IMG/VR virus record: IMGVR_UViG_3300022874_000030
Location: 1-28,727 of that record
DNA length: 28,727 nt
Origin: a virus
Reading direction: 5' to 3' (one strand)
Shown: piece after piece, positions 11,783 through 27,844 of the stretch
How the letters are laid out: each line of letters opens with the position of its first letter
Position numbering within the stretch: the stretch's first letter is position 1
The notes under the pieces: model-generated
The model's database searches: none
What the model saw: only the letters and a program-made list of their open reading frames with translations
What the model was told of the DNA's origin: nothing
Translations under genes and position numbers: made by a program

Positions 11783-12250
11783 TCAGATATTATCGTCAAA
11801 TTGCCTTTCTCTAGCAATAACTCCAGTAATAATAATACTTATAAATCTAGTAACAGTCATGTTTCGCTTATGCGCCATCTTCTTAATTAAATTGATTTGA
11901 TTTACATGAAGATCTACACCTAGACGACGTCTAGATTCTCGATAACTCTTTAGTTCAGTAGGTTTAGTTTTTGGGCCTTTTAACAATGAAATAAATAGAT
12001 GCTTAATATTTGTACATGATCTATTACAACATGTACTTCTAACAAAATGAAACTTTGGAATTTTTCCATATTCTGCAATCCATGCTGCTCTATTTGCACC
12101 CTGACTTTTTCCTCTTACGGATATTCTTGGAGTTCCATTACTACATGTTGCACCTATCCACCCATAACAATCATCTTCGTTTTCACCTTTAATGCGAAAT
12201 GAATCAAGTCTTTCTAGTAAATCATCTTTACGTTGTTGTGTCATATTCAT
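11783..12250 (-). CDS. Free-standing HNH homing endonuclease-like protein (155 aa)
   Basis: Likely a mobile DNA-cutting enzyme. Residues about 27-88 show the HNH plan: CYGWIGA, then GTPRISVRGKSQGANRAAW, then YGKIPKFHFVRSTCCNRSCTNIKHL. In the usual H-x-C-D-N-x-x-C-x-N-x-x-H-L motif the first histidine is serine here (S72), while the zinc cysteines, N81 and H84 are kept, so activity may be altered. The C-terminus (about 110-145, VDLHVNQINLIKKMAHKRNMTVTRFISIII) looks like a small DNA-binding helical or ribbon-helix-helix domain. The gene is antisense to its neighbours and has its own TTGACA promoter at 12331-12359. AAAGG stands nine bases before the ATG. Confidence 0.75.
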   Translation of the reverse strand: MNMTQQRKDDLLERLDSFRIKGENEDDCYGWIGATCSNGTPRISVRGKSQGANRAAWIAEYGKIPKFHFVRSTCCNRSCTNIKHLFISLLKGPKTKPTELKSYRESRRRLGVDLHVNQINLIKKMAHKRNMTVTRFISIIITGVIARERQFDDNI

Positions 12251-19267: not shown

Positions 19268-19921
19268 ATGAAAACATGCAAAGATTGTAAAATAACAAAA
19301 CCACTATGCGATTTTTATGTAAATGGAAGAAATAAGAAAACAGGTAAGCTGTGGTATCATTGTAGGTGTATTGAGTGTCATAATTTAAAATTTAGACCTA
19401 GAACTGGAGTAATAAGTTCAACTAGGTTTAAAAAAGGCCATATTCCTATGTCTAAAAAAATAGAAGGCGGAAGACATAGCTTAATGCATAAAGAATGGAT
19501 ATCGATGGTCTTTGAAAGAGATTTGTATATATGTCAAGAATGTTTTTCTACAGAGAATCTAGACGCTCATCATATTAAGTCATGGAATCATTATCCAGAT
19601 TTAAGATTTAAATTAAACAATGGTTTGACGTTGTGTAAGTCGTGTCATTCAAAACTTCATCTTAAAGATAAAAAATGCTTCCATAAAGGAAATATTCCTT
19701 GGAATAAGGGAACTGTTGGAATTATGGTTGCGTGGAACAAGGGTATAAGTGCAACGCTTGAAGCAAGAGCAAAAATGCGTGGGAAAAGGAAAAATTTTAT
19801 TCCATGGAACAAAGGACTAATAGGAATGGTGAAGATTAGTTTAGAAACAAAAAATAAAATGAGTAAAGCACATAAAGGTTTAAAATATAAAAAAAGAACT
19901 TTTAAAAGATTGGAAGCATAA
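19268..19921 (+). CDS. Free-standing HNH homing endonuclease with NUMOD3-like repeats (217 aa)
   Basis: A mobile DNA endonuclease. The N-terminus is a four-cysteine zinc module (C4, C7, C34, C37). Residues 84-131 form the HNH domain: RDLYICQEC, DAHHIKSWNHYPDL, then NNGLTLCKSCHSKLH, with paired cysteines at 89/92 and 123/126 and the histidine pair 101/102. The C-terminal third has repeated PWNKG/AWNKG motifs (144-182) and SLETKNKMSKAHKG, a NUMOD3-type DNA-binding repeat of homing endonucleases. It is inserted between two tail genes, has its own extended -10 promoter, and its stop overlaps the next ATG (TAATG), so it can be translated in tandem with the propeller gene. Confidence 0.9.
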   Translation: MKTCKDCKITKPLCDFYVNGRNKKTGKLWYHCRCIECHNLKFRPRTGVISSTRFKKGHIPMSKKIEGGRHSLMHKEWISMVFERDLYICQECFSTENLDAHHIKSWNHYPDLRFKLNNGLTLCKSCHSKLHLKDKKCFHKGNIPWNKGTVGIMVAWNKGISATLEARAKMRGKRKNFIPWNKGLIGMVKISLETKNKMSKAHKGLKYKKRTFKRLEA

Positions 19922-21802: not shown

Positions 21803-21824
21803 CAGCTTTCTAGAAGCCAGCTTT
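21794..21824 (-). repeat. Tandem 15-bp repeat duplicating the terL end (KAGF-stop)
   Basis: Read on the minus strand, the last terL codons AAAGCTGGCTTCTAG are followed directly by AAAGCTGGTTTCTAA: the KAGF-stop block is present twice, in frame, with TAG and then TAA. Two bases differ. Confidence 0.8.
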
Positions 21825-24800
21825 ATATATATTATTCATAGAATTATTATTTCCATATTGAGCTTGTTCTCGTTTACGTTTAAGCTCTTCGGCCGTCATG
21901 CTTGGTTGCATATGATTAACAGAAACTGCTAAGTAGCGTAGGGCGTCACAGTTTGAGACTAAATATCCATTAATGTAATAACAGTTATCTTTTTCAACGG
22001 TTAAGTCGTATACCTCTTTTGGTGTATCTAGTTGAGAGATTTGCACATTCTTTACTGCATGTTTTTTTAAGAACATATTTGTTACAGACAAAAGTTTTAC
22101 CACAAATAATACAATTCCTTTTTTCATCATCAATACGAGAGAGAACTCTTGCTTTTGTTTTACATTTATTGCTGCAGAATTTTCCCCATGCACATCCTGC
22201 TTCGTATTTTTTTGAACACACTTCGCATGTTTTTTCGTATTTAATTCCTTTAATGCCTGGCAATGATGTTTTAGCATGGTTTCTGTGCCACTCTCTTCCT
22301 TTTTTGCTTCGATGCCATACCTTAGAGAGTTTATTTTGCGCAACAAGAACCTTTTTGCATGCTTCAGACTGGCACCAAGAATTTGGTTCGGTAGCATGCA
22401 GATACCCATGATCATGTTTAGTAAGCATTTCAAGATTTTCAATATTGTTATTTTTAGTATTCTTGTCTTTGTGATGTATAACATATCCTTCTGGGATTTT
22501 TCCGTTATGTTTTTCCCAGACATGTCTTTGGATTGTTGTGAACACACCCTTTCCTCTATAATATCCCTTGTCTCCCGTTCCCATGTAATATTTTGATGCA
22601 GTCCATCTATAAAGGTATCCATTAAACAAGATTTGTTTTTCATCTTCTGAGATAAGATAGTCTTCTTGAATCCTTTTGAATCTGACCCCTTTATATAATA
22701 TCCAAATATCTTTCTCCATAAATAAGTCCTTATTTTACTATATGGTTCTAATACATGCGAATATCTTAGTGCATCGGCAGAAACAAGTCCATCGTTAGTA
22801 AAAAATGTATGATCAGGAGTACATTTTATATTGTTATTTATGGTATAAAGTTTGTCTGTTGTTCTTTTGTGAACTTTAAGTACTTTTCTTGTTCCAAGCG
22901 GTGTTATAACGCTGTTACCAGGTTTAATATCTTGTATAGCAACTTCACCATTTGCGGTTAATACTTTCATGTCTCCTGTAAAACAAGCGTGACTATACTT
23001 ACTGTGAAGAGGTTTCCCCGTATAATCTTGTGTTTTTTCGTCCCACTTTTCTCTATAGTTTTCTATTGCTTTAATAAGCTTTGCGCATCGTTGTTCATCA
23101 ATCCATACTCTACCAAGAATAGAACGAACAGCTTCTATGCCATCACGTACTGTTAATTTTGGTGCCATTATAAAATTAATACCTAGTTGTTGTGCCTTTT
23201 GTATTCTTGACATACCAGACGTATATTCATTCACAAAAATATCATGTGGAGCAACATGCTTACCGTACAAATATGGTTTGCTTTTTAATACCTGTACATA
23301 ATGTTCTAAACCTTCTTTGTTCTTTTCATAGAAGTCTATAATTCGTATTGTATTGCCAATTAGCTGGTAGAAAATTATAGAATTAGAATCATGAATTCCC
23401 AAATCCCACGCTGTATGAACAGGAAAAGAAGATTCCCATGGAGAAAGACCAATTTGATGATTTAAATTCATCTTATCAATGTATTTTGCGTAGTAACTTC
23501 CCTCAACGCCCGCATCGAAACTGCAATTATGAACGGCTCTTCCATTTACGGTATAACTTTCATCGTATTGAACAGAAAGATTATAAACATTACCAGAATA
23601 TGGACAAGATTCTATAGATTTCACCCTTGCTGCTATACAATTTTTAGCGCGACGTAAATACTTACTTTGGCCTCTTAAAGATAAATAAGTTATCTGTATG
23701 GAAAAAGATTCTTTACACTTTACTTTTCTTCCTTGAATAATGTTTTCGCAAGGTTTTTTTACTGAAATTCCTGCTGCTAATCCCATGTTTAAACTATTAG
23801 CAAGAAGTTGTACTTGATAAGCAAGTGTTTTTGATATAGTTGAATAAGAAATTCTTTCTAATCCATTTTTATATTTATAAACACAACCATCTCCTTTAAT
23901 CAGCTCAAAAAAGAAATCTTTTTCATGTCCAGCTATAAGAGTAAATGGTATGCATTTTTTATATGAAATAGACCCACAATTTATCTTCATAAAATCTATA
24001 AGAGCAGTCGATCCAACCAGAATATTAGTTGCGGTCTCTGTAGGAGATAAAGAAAATTTTATACCTAAACTGTTCAATAAAAATGATACGCGATCAATAT
24101 CTTTTTGAGAACCAAGCGTAAGCTGAAGGCCATTTTTAAATGATGATCCTTCGGTTATATACCATGCCATTAGAAGAGCAAGTTCTTTTCTAATTATTTC
24201 ATGCTTGCCAAGTGTTGCTTTAGGAAAAACAACATAGTCTTCTGTTGTTAATTCTTGAGCTTGTTTCCATGAGTAGCTTTGAGTTTTATAGTCATATATC
24301 TCAATAGGGTGTTCAGGAGTACATCTAATATCTTCAGATGACCCAAAAGATTTTATAACAAAAATCTTTCCATCATATTGTCTTTTAAATGTTTTAAGAA
24401 CTTTTCTCCATCTTCCGGCATGTGATAAAACAAGATCATCTTTAATTATATCTTTAATTGGTTTTATATCAGATGAAGTTAAAACAGACTGAGATCCCTC
24501 AAAGCAATAATATTCTTGTTGAATCATATCTGGACTAAGATTTCCTTCTGCGATTTCACGATCTATTGCTTCTTGTGAAATATGTTGTGTTTCATTTAAT
24601 CCAAGCTTACACGACCACCAATATGGTGAATTTTCAGCAAGTTGATATAAATCCCATAATCCATTGTGTCCTCTAGGCGTACTTTGGAAGATCGCCCAAC
24701 CACCATTTGCTGCTAAAACAGGGGATAATAGAGCCCATATACGCGGGTTTTGTAATGCATATTCACTGAAAACAATACCTCTTGGATTTGTTCCCACAAT

Positions 24801-26228
24801 GGAATTACCAGACCACATTTCTTTTCCGTTTCTTCTTACTTTTATAACTCCAGATGGAACTGAAACGCAATAAATCATTCCTGTATAATTCTCTTTTGTA
24901 ATATATCTCTTTTTTGATGATGAAAAACGTTTGAATTTTGAAGTTCTAACAGAAAAGGCATAAAGTGTATTTTTATTTTTAATAAATCGATTGTCTCTAT
25001 TGATCCAGTGTTTATCGCCAATATTATTTTTTATTGAAACATTTCCACTATAACCAAGTTTGATTGCTATTTCCTGAACATCATCGACAAGTTTTTTTGA
25101 CGTAGAGTAATACGCAATGCCACCATTATTTTTATGTATACTTCCATCACCAAGAACAAGCCAATCAAATAAAATCTTAAGATACTTAACGGAAAGATTC
25201 TTTATATCTTTTGGTATAAATCTATTTGGTTGAAGTCCAAACTGACTAAAATATTCATAAAGTTGTCGATCTTCAATGCAATAGTTATTATTATAATTCG
25301 AATAATTTAATCTGCACTTATCTAATAACTCTTCTATTTTTAATCTTATGGGTTCTTTTTTTTGAGTGATAGTTGTGCGATATGTTTTTTCGCTTTTAAA
25401 TGTATTACCTTCAGATAGAAAAATACCAAGGAGAGCAACAAAGTTTTCCATTTTTAAGGTTCTGTCGTATAACTTTTTGCAGACTCTTCCTTTTCCTGTT
25501 ATCCATTCAGAATAAACAGTAGGAAAAGCAAAAGTGTCTTGTTCTTTCCCATTCCATAAACACGTAGACGGAATACTATCACCAGAAAGAGAAAGCTTTT
25601 CTACAGTCTTAAATTTATAGAACCCCTTATCTGATTTCACATAAAATCTATGCGTTGGGGTAACCAAAAAATCTAATGATGTATTTAATCCACGATACAT
25701 TTCTCCATTATATGGCTTTTCTACATATGCAATAGGCTTTTCATATACAAGATAACCATCTTTTAATGTTGCAACTGATTCTGTTTTATTAAGATCTTTA
25801 AATAATTTCCATCCATCTTCAGTTAATATTTCAGTTTCATGGTCAAAACAATCTGGATTATCTGATCCGATAATTTGTATTATTGAACTATTCATGAGAT
25901 TAATTCTTAGCTCTTGTGAGTTCATACTGGATATCATTTGCTTTGGAATATAATCTAGGAAGCGTTTTCCGTCATTCGTAACTGAGTTCCACAGAATCTT
26001 ACGACCTTGGTTATAGGTTGGATAGCAGACGAAATAGACTCCTGGCTTATTTATTGCTTCTCGTATTAGCATATTCCATGTCATTAGATCTTTTCCAGCT
26101 CTACGACAAATCACTAACACCATTCTTTTGAACTCATCACCAAAGAATGCTTGCATAATAGGACGTTGATAATCCCTAGGAACAAACTTATTAAGATGTA
26201 CTTCTATTTCAATTGGTTTTGTTTCCAT
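21810..26228 (-). CDS. terL: Terminase large subunit precursor carrying three inteins (1472 aa, 451 after splicing)
   Basis: The motor that cuts and packages phage DNA into the capsid. Four extein pieces (residues 1-126, 476-574, 902-1081, 1427-1472) join to a typical 451-residue TerL. ATPase: Walker A is CRRAGKD (41-47), Walker B lies at GIVFSEYA with E489, and the coupling motif is AIFQSTPRG (513-520). RNase-H-like nuclease: WDLG with D942, APHDI with D996, and the final CDALRY with D1428. Inteins sit before Walker B, before CSFDAG and before CDALRY. The ATG directly follows the stop of the ERF-like gene (TAA-ATG) without a clear ribosome site, so translation is probably coupled. The gene is opposite in direction to the virion genes. 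Function depends on three splicing events. Confidence 0.93.
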   Translation of the reverse strand: METKPIEIEVHLNKFVPRDYQRPIMQAFFGDEFKRMVLVICRRAGKDLMTWNMLIREAINKPGVYFVCYPTYNQGRKILWNSVTNDGKRFLDYIPKQMISSMNSQELRINLMNSSIIQIIGSDNPDCFDHETEILTEDGWKLFKDLNKTESVATLKDGYLVYEKPIAYVEKPYNGEMYRGLNTSLDFLVTPTHRFYVKSDKGFYKFKTVEKLSLSGDSIPSTCLWNGKEQDTFAFPTVYSEWITGKGRVCKKLYDRTLKMENFVALLGIFLSEGNTFKSEKTYRTTITQKKEPIRLKIEELLDKCRLNYSNYNNNYCIEDRQLYEYFSQFGLQPNRFIPKDIKNLSVKYLKILFDWLVLGDGSIHKNNGGIAYYSTSKKLVDDVQEIAIKLGYSGNVSIKNNIGDKHWINRDNRFIKNKNTLYAFSVRTSKFKRFSSSKKRYITKENYTGMIYCVSVPSGVIKVRRNGKEMWSGNSIVGTNPRGIVFSEYALQNPRIWALLSPVLAANGGWAIFQSTPRGHNGLWDLYQLAENSPYWWSCKLGLNETQHISQEAIDREIAEGNLSPDMIQQEYYCFEGSQSVLTSSDIKPIKDIIKDDLVLSHAGRWRKVLKTFKRQYDGKIFVIKSFGSSEDIRCTPEHPIEIYDYKTQSYSWKQAQELTTEDYVVFPKATLGKHEIIRKELALLMAWYITEGSSFKNGLQLTLGSQKDIDRVSFLLNSLGIKFSLSPTETATNILVGSTALIDFMKINCGSISYKKCIPFTLIAGHEKDFFFELIKGDGCVYKYKNGLERISYSTISKTLAYQVQLLANSLNMGLAAGISVKKPCENIIQGRKVKCKESFSIQITYLSLRGQSKYLRRAKNCIAARVKSIESCPYSGNVYNLSVQYDESYTVNGRAVHNCSFDAGVEGSYYAKYIDKMNLNHQIGLSPWESSFPVHTAWDLGIHDSNSIIFYQLIGNTIRIIDFYEKNKEGLEHYVQVLKSKPYLYGKHVAPHDIFVNEYTSGMSRIQKAQQLGINFIMAPKLTVRDGIEAVRSILGRVWIDEQRCAKLIKAIENYREKWDEKTQDYTGKPLHSKYSHACFTGDMKVLTANGEVAIQDIKPGNSVITPLGTRKVLKVHKRTTDKLYTINNNIKCTPDHTFFTNDGLVSADALRYSHVLEPYSKIRTYLWRKIFGYYIKGSDSKGFKKTILSQKMKNKSCLMDTFIDGLHQNITWERETRDIIEERVCSQQSKDMSGKNITEKSQKDMLYITKTRILKITILKILKCLLNMIMGICMLPNQILGASLKHAKRFLLRKINSLRYGIEAKKEESGTETMLKHHCQALKELNTKKHAKCVQKNTKQDVHGENSAAINVKQKQEFSLVLMMKKGIVLFVVKLLSVTNMFLKKHAVKNVQISQLDTPKEVYDLTVEKDNCYYINGYLVSNCDALRYLAVSVNHMQPSMTAEELKRKREQAQYGNNNSMNNIYKAGF
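21951..22985 (-). mobile_element. Intein 3 of TerL containing an out-of-frame HNH gene (345 aa)
   Basis: Starts at C1082 (CFTGDMKVLTANGEVAIQDI) with block B KCTPDHTFF and ends EVYDLTVEKDNCYYINGYLVSN before C1427. Intein residues 1-88 and about 318-345 are recognisable splicing domain. Residues 89-331 are not an endonuclease in this frame: they are Lys/Leu/Ile/Met-rich and look like the by-product of the HNH gene read in the other frame (21994-22719). The frame nevertheless stays open for 242 codons. The penultimate residue is Ser instead of His. It interrupts the last nuclease motif (HA/CDALRY). Confidence 0.88.
21994..22719 (-). CDS. HNH homing endonuclease nested out of frame inside intein 3 (241 aa)
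   Basis: A complete endonuclease gene inside terL. It begins at an ATG on the third base of intein codon 89, with AAGGA seven bases upstream and an in-frame TAA six codons before the ATG, so it is not fused to the intein. The HNH domain is RHVWEKHNGKIPEGYVIHHKDKN with NLEML and HDHGYLH (residues 65-108; H82/H83, N95, H104). The C-terminal half has two four-cysteine zinc modules (C165, C168, C182, C186 and C203, C206, C221, C225) for DNA binding. It ends with TGA shared with intein codons 330-331 in block F. Translation independent of terL is likely. The protein would cut intein-less terL alleles; this is inferred from the family. Confidence 0.9.
   Translation of the reverse strand: MEKDIWILYKGVRFKRIQEDYLISEDEKQILFNGYLYRWTASKYYMGTGDKGYYRGKGVFTTIQRHVWEKHNGKIPEGYVIHHKDKNTKNNNIENLEMLTKHDHGYLHATEPNSWCQSEACKKVLVAQNKLSKVWHRSKKGREWHRNHAKTSLPGIKGIKYEKTCEVCSKKYEAGCAWGKFCSNKCKTKARVLSRIDDEKRNCIICGKTFVCNKYVLKKTCSKECANLSTRYTKRGIRLNR
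23526..24506 (-). mobile_element. Intein 2 of TerL with LAGLIDADG endonuclease (327 aa)
   Basis: Starts at C575 (CFEGSQSVLTSSDIKPI) and ends ...YTVNGRAVHN before C902. Block B is RCTPEHPIEI. Endonuclease motifs are LLMAWYITEG (E119 of the intein) and FFELIKGDGC (D206). Block F is VYNLSVQYDESY. All standard splicing residues are present: Cys1, T-x-x-H, terminal His-Asn and Cys+1. It interrupts the extein sequence EYY/CSFDAG between ATPase and nuclease. Confidence 0.93.
24804..25850 (-). mobile_element. Intein 1 of TerL with LAGLIDADG endonuclease (349 aa)
   Basis: Starts at C127 (CFDHETEILTEDGWKLFKDL), ends ...MWSGN before S476. Splicing block B is VTPTHRF (T-x-x-H). The homing endonuclease has both LAGLIDADG motifs: LLGIFLSEG (acidic E147 of the intein) and FDWLVLGDGS (D235). 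The insertion is inside the very conserved extein motif GSDNPD/SIVGTNPRG just before Walker B. The penultimate residue is Gly instead of the usual His; +1 is Ser. Confidence 0.92.
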
Positions 26229-27017
26229 TTATAGCCATGAATTTTCACTAGAGTTTTTCTTTCCACCTCTACCCTCACGCCGTGCAATAATTTTAAGCGC
26301 TTGCTCTTTAGAATCTTCGAACTTGCTTTTTGGCATATCGGCAAGATTTTCTATTTTTAAACTTTCAAGCATCTTCTCAGCAAGATCAGGATAATTTGCC
26401 AAGATAATTTGTAGCTGCTCTGTTTGGTCGTTATTAATAAGCATAAACGACTCTTGTTTTGCATTGTAACGAGCGTTTACTCCTGTTGCCTTAGCTTTCT
26501 CTACTCGAATAGATCTCATGTCTTGTTCGCCATCGTCGTCGTCTAAGTCTTCTTTAATAGTAAGGTTAAGAATATTCATAAACGAGTTACGCTTTTTAGC
26601 CTTCATATGAGAATTAAATGTTTGGATATCATTTTTTGCTGGAACTAGTCTGGTTCTTGTTTCCATGAACTGAGCAGAGTCATGCAATAGAATGGCTGAA
26701 AGTATAACTTTATCGTCTTCTAGCATTTCTCTGAAAGTAACAGACAACCCATTCTGGGAGAGTGCGGCTCTAACTGCTAATACCATGACATCAAGGTCAG
26801 CGTATTGGCGAAACATCGAGAAGTTATTATCTCTGTTAGTAGCAATAACGGGAAATTCGCCTTGAGCTTTAGAGAGAGCCGCACAAAGGAGATCTATTTC
26901 TTCAGATTGATATTTGTCTACGTATTTTTCTTTTAATCGTTCTTCAACCTTTTGGTTAATGAACTTGTCTAATGCTTCTAAATTTTTTAAATCTGCTTTT
27001 AAGTTGTCAATCTCCAT
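26229..27017 (-). CDS. ERF-like single-strand annealing protein, divergent copy (262 aa)
   Basis: Likely a recombinase of the ERF superfamily that anneals complementary DNA strands. The N-terminal half has an ERF-like pattern: EIDLLCAALSKAQGEFPVI, then FRQYADLDVMVLAVRAALSQ, then ILLHDSAQFMETRTRLVP, then IQTFNSHMKAKKRNSFMNIL and an acidic DLDDDDGE. The last part matches the place of the family's Q-x-x-G-S-x-x-T-Y-x-R-R-Y motif but lacks the Gly, the Tyr and the Arg-Arg pair. The C-terminal 90 residues are basic and variable. GGGAG precedes the ATG. It directly adjoins terL and follows the second ERF-like gene. Confidence 0.65.
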   Translation of the reverse strand: MEIDNLKADLKNLEALDKFINQKVEERLKEKYVDKYQSEEIDLLCAALSKAQGEFPVIATNRDNNFSMFRQYADLDVMVLAVRAALSQNGLSVTFREMLEDDKVILSAILLHDSAQFMETRTRLVPAKNDIQTFNSHMKAKKRNSFMNILNLTIKEDLDDDDGEQDMRSIRVEKAKATGVNARYNAKQESFMLINNDQTEQLQIILANYPDLAEKMLESLKIENLADMPKSKFEDSKEQALKIIARREGRGGKKNSSENSWL

Positions 27018-27042: not shown

Positions 27043-27576
27043 TTATCTTCCATCATAATCATCATCTACTTCAATGCCTAATAACGATTTTAAAGCATAT
27101 CGCTTCATATAAGTCTGAGATCCACCATGTGCCTGGCAATCATGATCTATAAGAACTGCCTTTCCAGACTTCTGATATGTTCTTGGTAACATTGAAACAG
27201 AGCGAACGTATTGTTTGCTGGTGACGTGTCTAATTATGGTGACTATATACGTTGTTTGATCAATTGTGTGAACATGCTGGTAGAGCTTACATTTTTGATT
27301 ATACAGCCCGGTTGTTATGTAACTTAACATAGAACCAAATGATTGATACTTGTGTGTATTACTTTGCTTGTCTGTACAAAGCGCAGGATTTTCATGTAAA
27401 AATTCCATTAATGCCATATCAATTTCTTCTGTTTCAAATGACTGTATGTCTAGAAAGAAATCTTGCTTGTTTTTATACGTAGTGTATCTATCAAGTAGGA
27501 TTACATCTTTAAGAAACTTTCCAACCAAACCATCTTCTTTTTTAAGTTCTTTTTTTGGTTCTTCTGAATTATTCAT
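27043..27576 (-). CDS. ERF-like single-strand annealing protein, canonical motif copy (177 aa)
   Basis: Member of the ERF recombinase superfamily. The ATG at 27576 gives the eight-base overlap ATGAATAA with the previous stop and is preferred over the upstream ATG at 27600. Core elements: MALMEFLHENPALCTDK, KYQSFGSMLSYITTGLYNQ, VTIIRHVTSKQYVRSVSMLP, and the diagnostic CQAHGGSQTYMKRYALKSLLGIE followed by DDDYDG (residues 147-176). It is short, ending soon after this motif without the C-terminal tail of most ERF proteins. It pairs with the divergent ERF-like gene downstream, suggesting a duplicated or two-part annealing system in the leftward operon. Confidence 0.75.
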   Translation of the reverse strand: MNNSEEPKKELKKEDGLVGKFLKDVILLDRYTTYKNKQDFFLDIQSFETEEIDMALMEFLHENPALCTDKQSNTHKYQSFGSMLSYITTGLYNQKCKLYQHVHTIDQTTYIVTIIRHVTSKQYVRSVSMLPRTYQKSGKAVLIDHDCQAHGGSQTYMKRYALKSLLGIEVDDDYDGR

Positions 27577-27844
27577 ATCTTCTCTTTTTGGTATCGTCAC
27601 GCTCTAAAGGTTTTTTATTTATAAAACCTTCATATATTAATATTTTTTCTTGCTCAAGTTGTTGCTTCGATAGCTTGTCTAAATGCTCAATATTATATTT
27701 TTCATATATTGCCTTGAGACGTTTAGTTCCATAAAACATAGGGACTGGCTTTCTTACAGTCGGATTAGCAAACCTCTTTGAATCCATTATCATTAAGATA
27801 TCTATCAGGTCACCCAACACCATGTCCTTAGTTTCTTTATACAT
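27569..27844 (-). CDS. Small leftward-operon protein, function unknown (91 aa)
   Basis: The ATG at 27844 follows GAAGG at five bases and lies just after the upstream stop (27846-27848), so it is preferred to the ATG at 27877 inside the previous gene. The protein opens MYKETKDMVLGDLIDILMIM and is helical and charged, with KRLKAIYEKYNIEHLDKLSKQQLEQEK in the middle and a basic tail. No catalytic motif or family is recognised. It overlaps the downstream ERF-like gene by eight bases, so the operon is translationally coupled. Confidence 0.7.
   Translation of the reverse strand: MYKETKDMVLGDLIDILMIMDSKRFANPTVRKPVPMFYGTKRLKAIYEKYNIEHLDKLSKQQLEQEKILIYEGFINKKPLERDDTKKRRYE

Follow-up and report, generated by a model that had tools for sequence, protein, structure and literature searches.

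Canonical bifunctional inteins carry an in-frame homing endonuclease of the LAGLIDADG or, rarely, the HNH type. Also known, and reportedly described by Dassa and colleagues in 2009, are split inteins, in which a fractured gene carries a free-standing endonuclease gene between the two intein halves. The element considered here is the third intein of the terminase large subunit gene (terL) in the IMG/VR virus record IMGVR_UViG_3300022874_000030, the whole 28,727 bases of which are called the window below. As in canonical bifunctional inteins, an endonuclease lies between intein blocks B and F in the same type of host gene, but here it is predicted to be a separate, out-of-frame product. As in split inteins, a free-standing endonuclease gene occupies the endonuclease position of the intein, but the intein there consists of two genes, whereas here one continuous frame runs through the endonuclease gene. 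We consider it highly probable that intein 3 is a dual-coding mobile intein, in which a self-standing homing endonuclease gene with its own start is lodged in the endonuclease site of a mini-intein, and in which the same DNA doubles as an excisable linker. This reading is carried by features visible in the compared sequences, namely two open frames, intact splicing residues, a conserved HNH protein, selection against stops, a well-placed start codon, and sporadic occupancy of one site.

For the brucellaphage TerL, one passage in a comparison of genomes from a single phage group mentions an HNH gene that is out of frame and putatively encoded by an intein (PMC4422536, 2015). That comparison did not go into the intein halves, their frames, the selection on them, or their distribution. 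The ShiLan domain, or Pacc40 insertion, comprises out-of-frame HNH genes in phage DNA methylases that were argued to be neither inteins nor introns (PMC11855218, 2025), and another such methylase, from Applejack, was announced in 2025 (PMC12613952). These insertions resemble intein 3 in the out-of-frame HNH, the open host frame, and the sporadic distribution, but they have no splicing domain and their linker stays in the methylase, whereas here intein halves flank the HNH gene and the linker could be removed with the intein. An earlier, sequence-only reading of the window had taken the arrangement to be undescribed. The brucellaphage passage softens that claim. In the literature examined, no study treats unsplit inteins with an out-of-frame endonuclease nested in them as a class, or considers their frames or the selection on them, although an actinobacteriophage intein preprint that speaks of a ‘non-canonical architecture’ (10.1101/2025.01.02.630785) may overlap. 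The out-of-frame intein HNH, previously noted in passing, is widespread (about 100 other viral or prophage sequences) and kept by selection.

The Nested HNH Gene and Its Intein

The main features of the locus are as follows.

21810-26228, minus strand: terL, terminase large subunit precursor, 1472 amino acids, with three inteins and a predicted spliced product of 451 amino acids
21951-22985, minus strand: TerL intein 3, 345 amino acids, residues 1082-1426 (Pfam Intein_splicing 7.8e-11 for the intein alone)
22720-22985, minus strand: N-terminal half of intein 3, comprising blocks A and B and coding in the intein frame alone; predicted local distance difference test score (pLDDT) 95-98 for residues 1-80; mean information content 1.72 bits per column
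22727-22731, minus strand: AAGGA, Shine-Dalgarno-like, 7 nucleotides upstream of the HNH ATG
21994-22719, minus strand: nested HNH endonuclease gene, 241 amino acids, an open reading frame with ATG start and TGA stop (Pfam HNH_3 7e-18)
21951-22016, minus strand: C-terminal blocks F and G of intein 3 (VYDLTVEKDNCYYINGYLVSN); AlphaFold pLDDT 91-98 for residues 311-345

The window terL, like the host gene of the nested relatives, is a single open frame from start to stop, rather than two genes with half an intein each, and its product matches terminase large subunits in PHROGs. Intein 3 is inserted at the TerL nuclease motif, SHA|C...SN|CDALRY. When the exteins are joined, the resulting 451-residue TerL is collinear with that of a related locus (L009, its own intein removed), with 53% identity over 448 amino acids. 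Both splicing ends of intein 3 are intact and its own frame is without an endonuclease; the residues of a class 1 Hint intein are present, including the N-terminal Cys, the block B TxxH, and a C-terminal Asn followed by Cys (Ser in a few relatives). In the AlphaFold model, residues 1-80 and 311-345 have pLDDT values above 90, and the stretch between them is mostly at 36-83. The two intein ends are thus predicted to form a Hint fold, for which the best Foldseek match was the gp41-1 intein (6qaz, E 3.4e-6).

The HNH gene is out of frame with the intein and has its own start and stop, in place of the in-frame endonuclease of a canonical bifunctional intein. Since its codons start at the third base of the intein codons, the intein lies in frame HNH+1. 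Across the gene, the intein frame contains no stops and the third frame contains 29. The HNH stop codon falls within intein block F, and positions 21994-22016 are therefore conserved coding sequence in both frames. The protein carries two CxxC/CxxxC zinc modules (C165, C168, C182, C186 and C203, C206, C221, C225). Its AlphaFold model has a mean pLDDT of 91.6, and I-HmuI (PDB 1u3e), which shares the HNH_3-type catalytic core, was the best match both by fold and by sequence profile. I-HmuI is encoded within an intron, whereas no group I or other intron was detected within the intein, the window having no Rfam match at gathering thresholds. The sequence-only reading had proposed a complete HNH gene, with AAGGA site, ATG, TGA, HNH core, and two zinc modules, lying wholly within the coding sequence of intein 3 in another frame while the intein frame stays open, and each of these points was borne out.

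That reading had also estimated that about 11 stops should occur by chance in the intein frame, which is too many. When the HNH protein was held fixed and stops were counted in the intein frame, 6.9 were expected with the codon usage of the window (P of none 0.0004), 3.8 with the codon usage of the HNH gene itself (P of none 0.012), and 3.3 under synonymous permutation within the gene, the codon-shuffling test that the reading had suggested (P of none 0.013). The openness of the frame at this locus alone is moderately unlikely by chance and suggestive only; proof comes from the relatives.

Relatives of the Nested Locus

IMG/VR, GTDB genomes, and isolated phages were searched first with the window HNH and afterwards with A1, an alignment of nested HNHs. 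About 170 loci (numbered L below) were obtained, for which HNH similarity was the criterion of choice and openness of a frame played no part. Around every HNH gene, each of the three frames was scanned with profiles of the two intein halves (N- and C-terminal), with stops ignored. Both halves were found in frame HNH+1, without a stop between them, at 91 loci (including a few near-duplicates). Five further loci (L082, L083, L089, L098, and L102), which form one clade of the HNH tree, are nested in HNH+2, with only the N half passing the intein profile at L098. At about 13 loci both halves flank the HNH gene, but stops or frame changes intervene, as in split inteins of fractured genes; in Vibrio phage 1.245.O, for example, the C half is annotated as a separate hint-domain gene. 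The remaining loci are free-standing HNH genes, often adjoining terL, or distant in-frame cases.

The nested loci range from 31 to 69% in GC content, and their contigs were assigned to Actinomycetes, Bacteroidota, Clostridia, Nitrospirota, Patescibacteria, and two archaea (L110 and L113). The arrangement also occurs in two isolated phages, Acinetobacter phage Highwayman (OZ038341) and Tetrasphaera phage TJE1 (HQ225832), both annotated with terL only. Among 55 nested hosts scanned, Pfam Intein_splicing was matched in 51, PHROG 2 in 46, and PHROG 30251 in 43, both PHROGs being terminase large subunits. Nested HNH inteins were also observed at other TerL sites (L073, L087, L101, L138, and L154; for example, GIDFGYE|CDPTA in L138 and FTDDI|C in L101), indicating that the cassette is not limited to the C-terminal nuclease motif. 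In the phage contigs of L013 and L014, all apparent stops in both overlapping frames are TGA, and both frames are open if TGA is read as sense (tryptophan); an alternative genetic code concerns these two loci and is unnecessary for the window.

Split (fractured) forms around a homologous HNH gene were seen at L031, L040, L046, L051, L060, L068, L112, L119, L123, L124, L129, and L003. A single supported clade of the HNH tree, made up largely of Firmicutes-like contigs, contains eleven loci labelled as split. At L027 (3045-4496), the HNH gene is nested in a DNA methylase gene, with the fully open host frame in HNH+1 and intein ends absent, as in the ShiLan arrangement, and this locus was excluded from the intein counts. 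L036 looks nested, but intein halves were not found, and with 1.3 stops expected there its open frame is compatible with chance. In-frame HNH inteins (L157, L159, L161, and others) were distant partial matches with a different arrangement.

Seventy-five terL genes, related to that of the window through the extein segment that separates inteins 2 and 3, were used to assess occupancy of the intein 3 site. The sequence-only reading had recommended searching homologous terL genes for the same nested frame; the site is occupied in five of the 75, and all five inserts contain a nested HNH with the intein in HNH+1. The other 70 are uninterrupted when the junctions are read directly; L182 and L186 are examples of an empty terL site. 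An automatic count had given 46 empty sites and 29 inserts, the junction pattern having missed variants such as ADCLRY and SDAMRL.

Selection on the Two Reading Frames

To obtain the expected numbers of host-frame stops, synonymous codons were shuffled inside each HNH gene, and the stops that arose were set against those observed. At nested HNH+1 loci, no stops were observed against 167 expected (86 loci). At nested HNH+2 loci, none were observed against 49 expected in the host frame, compared with 46 against 38 in the other frame. The split loci contained 99 against 89 expected, and the free-standing HNH homologues exactly the expected number (157 against 157). The ‘nested’ label itself demands an open frame, so the result is more properly put as a division in two: where intein halves flank the HNH, the locus is either fully open or fully at expectation, with almost none between. 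Openness is kept exactly where the intein needs read-through, whichever frame is involved, and is lost where it is not needed.

The two frames differ in what is conserved. Between paired nested relatives, identity is 52-76% in the HNH protein and 30-59% in the host frame read from these bases, and HNH third positions, which are the second positions of intein codons, carry 44-57% of the substitutions. In an alignment of 71 inteins, Cys1, the block B residues T56 and H59, and the terminal Asn345 are invariant, and the only conserved residues in the overlap are Gly157, Gly224, and Gly233, which by position correspond to the TGG codons for HNH Trp68, Trp135, and Trp144 read out of frame. Across 53 HNHs, H82, H83, D85, N90, N91, N95, H104, and the zinc cysteines are invariant or nearly so. 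Judged from these alignments, the HNH protein is conserved and the opposite intein frame is unconstrained apart from stops. With the intein ends intact, this pattern supports the earlier proposal that one frame serves the endonuclease and the other serves as an open linker.

Among the four closest relatives, third-position divergence is 0.19-0.28 at both ends of the HNH gene versus about 0.5 in mid-gene. The value at the 3′ end, which overlaps blocks F and G, is 0.19; low divergence at the gene ends is as expected where both frames matter. The N-terminal extension of the HNH is special to this subclade, and over the first 40 HNH codons (22600-22719, minus strand) the divergence among these relatives is 0.23-0.28. 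Either the intein frame is constrained there too, or the DNA has another role. Finally, two alleles of the same intein, L016 and L017, have lost 408 nucleotides of the HNH core and gained two stops in the HNH frame, while the intein frame is still open and both intein ends are intact. The loss of the HNH with retention of the open frame is direct evidence that the intein frame, and not the HNH, is indispensable.

Probable Translation of the Nested Endonuclease

Upstream of the HNH match, the HNH frame is closed by a stop at a median distance of 15 codons. Between this stop and the HNH core, an in-frame ATG was found in 78 of 90 loci, compared with 29.7 expected from composition, and Shine-Dalgarno-like sites precede 37% of candidate nested-HNH starts, against a background of 15%. 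In a first alternative, ribosomes in the intein frame would enter the HNH by a programmed -1 frameshift and make an extein-IntN-HNH fusion. The geometry would allow this, as the HNH frame is -1 relative to the intein frame, the common direction of bacterial frameshifting, and a slippery heptamer occurs near the junction in 17 of 83 loci versus 7.6 expected. However, no such heptamer was found in the window, 66 of the 83 loci lack one, and those present are at scattered positions; the HNH frame is closed shortly upstream of the match, in the region where ATG codons and Shine-Dalgarno-like sites are enriched; and the five HNH+2 loci have the opposite relative frame. Frameshifting is therefore an unlikely route. 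With ATG and Shine-Dalgarno-like sites enriched and slippery heptamers few and scattered, internal initiation is the best-supported route by which the HNH protein may be produced.

Alternative Readings and Proposed Mechanism

A second alternative is that the intein is functionally split, its precursor being cleaved or its halves made apart and trans-spliced, so that continuity of the frame is incidental. The truly split relatives around the same HNH, such as that of Vibrio phage 1.245.O, lend this some plausibility, as does the fact that gp41-1, the closest solved intein fold, is a natural split intein. The joint stop test argues in the other direction: the complete absence of intein-frame stops from nested loci, set against their expected abundance in split loci, indicates that continuity is selected where it is present. 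We regard a functionally split intein as very unlikely.

Under a third alternative, the locus would be an inserted HNH gene or a relic, with the intein frame open by luck or near decay and TerL not made through it. The probability of an open frame in the window alone is not negligible (0.0004 to 0.013). Across the 86 loci, however, not one of 167 expected stops was found, while free-standing homologues sit exactly at expectation; in addition, both intein ends and the splicing residues are conserved, and alleles that lose the HNH retain the intein frame. Chance thus seems exceedingly improbable. Assembly or sequencing indels that shifted an in-frame HNH intein out of frame, an idea that draws on the in-frame endonucleases of canonical inteins, may be dismissed almost entirely, as the same offset recurs in independent assemblies (Highwayman, TJE1, and contigs of bacterial and archaeal genomes among them), each of which would need a pair of compensating indels, and as the HNH gene is bounded by a start and a stop codon of its own.

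Several observations weigh against a dual-coding mobile intein. In the window, Ser precedes the terminal Asn of the intein (VSN), where most relatives have His; the overall predicted template modelling score of the intein model is low (0.49); and about half of the nested HNHs are without a recognisable Shine-Dalgarno site. The substitution of Ser for His is tolerated variation and no bar to the intein class, and the low score of the model is attributable to the linker.

For the dual-coding intein, the following mechanism is proposed. Ribosomes in the terL frame would make a TerL precursor containing intein 3, whose halves (blocks A and B, and blocks F and G) would fold into a Hint domain and self-splice, removing with the intein a meaningless linker of about 240 residues encoded opposite the HNH. 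Ribosomes starting at the internal AAGGA and ATG would make the free HNH endonuclease with its two zinc modules. By analogy with known homing endonucleases, this enzyme may cut element-free terL and promote homing, with repair copying the whole intein and the nested gene into the cut site. Splicing, translation from the internal start, cleavage, and homing are each what the families involved would lead one to expect. As for the order of events, the HNH may have entered a mini-intein, or a split intein may have become joined around the HNH; the HNH tree is unrooted.

Other Features of the terL Region

Two further inteins are present in the window terL.

24804-25850, minus strand: TerL intein 1, 349 amino acids, residues 127-475, with in-frame LAGLIDADG endonuclease (Pfam LAGLIDADG_3 5.8e-10); ends placed by alignment with L009
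23526-24506, minus strand: TerL intein 2, 327 amino acids, residues 575-901, with in-frame LAGLIDADG (Intein_splicing 1e-11, LAGLIDADG_3 2e-9); ends placed by alignment with L009

A single terL thus displays two endonuclease arrangements, with two in-frame LAGLIDADG inteins and one out-of-frame HNH intein. The window contains two more free-standing HNH genes, at 19268-19921 (plus strand) and 11783-12250 (minus strand), with matches to Pfam HNH with a NUMOD3-like motif and to HNH_3, respectively. Two adjoining genes of the ERF recombination family (26229-27017 and 27043-27600, minus strand) are neighbours of terL.

Implications

It is possible, although we hold this tentatively and at somewhat less than even confidence, that dual-coding inteins are a large, ancient, and so far unrecognised class, found in bacterial and archaeal phages and prophages, whose host frame is selected over about 200 codons only against stops, and that they are the direct evolutionary neighbours of split inteins. 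If so, loss of the constraint against stops would yield a fractured gene, or, in reverse, the halves would fuse. The continuous, HNH-deleted, and fractured forms share a host gene and homologous endonucleases, and they therefore make the origin of split inteins a tractable question. The arrangement would represent a common way for an intein to encode a homing endonuclease that is not part of the intein, in the same place and in another frame. As an unusually clean natural case of dual coding, with one frame fully constrained and the other having only to avoid stops, it is also a good test bed for overlapping-gene methods. In practice, many terL genes hide an unannotated endonuclease gene of this kind, which naive gene callers will miss or misplace.
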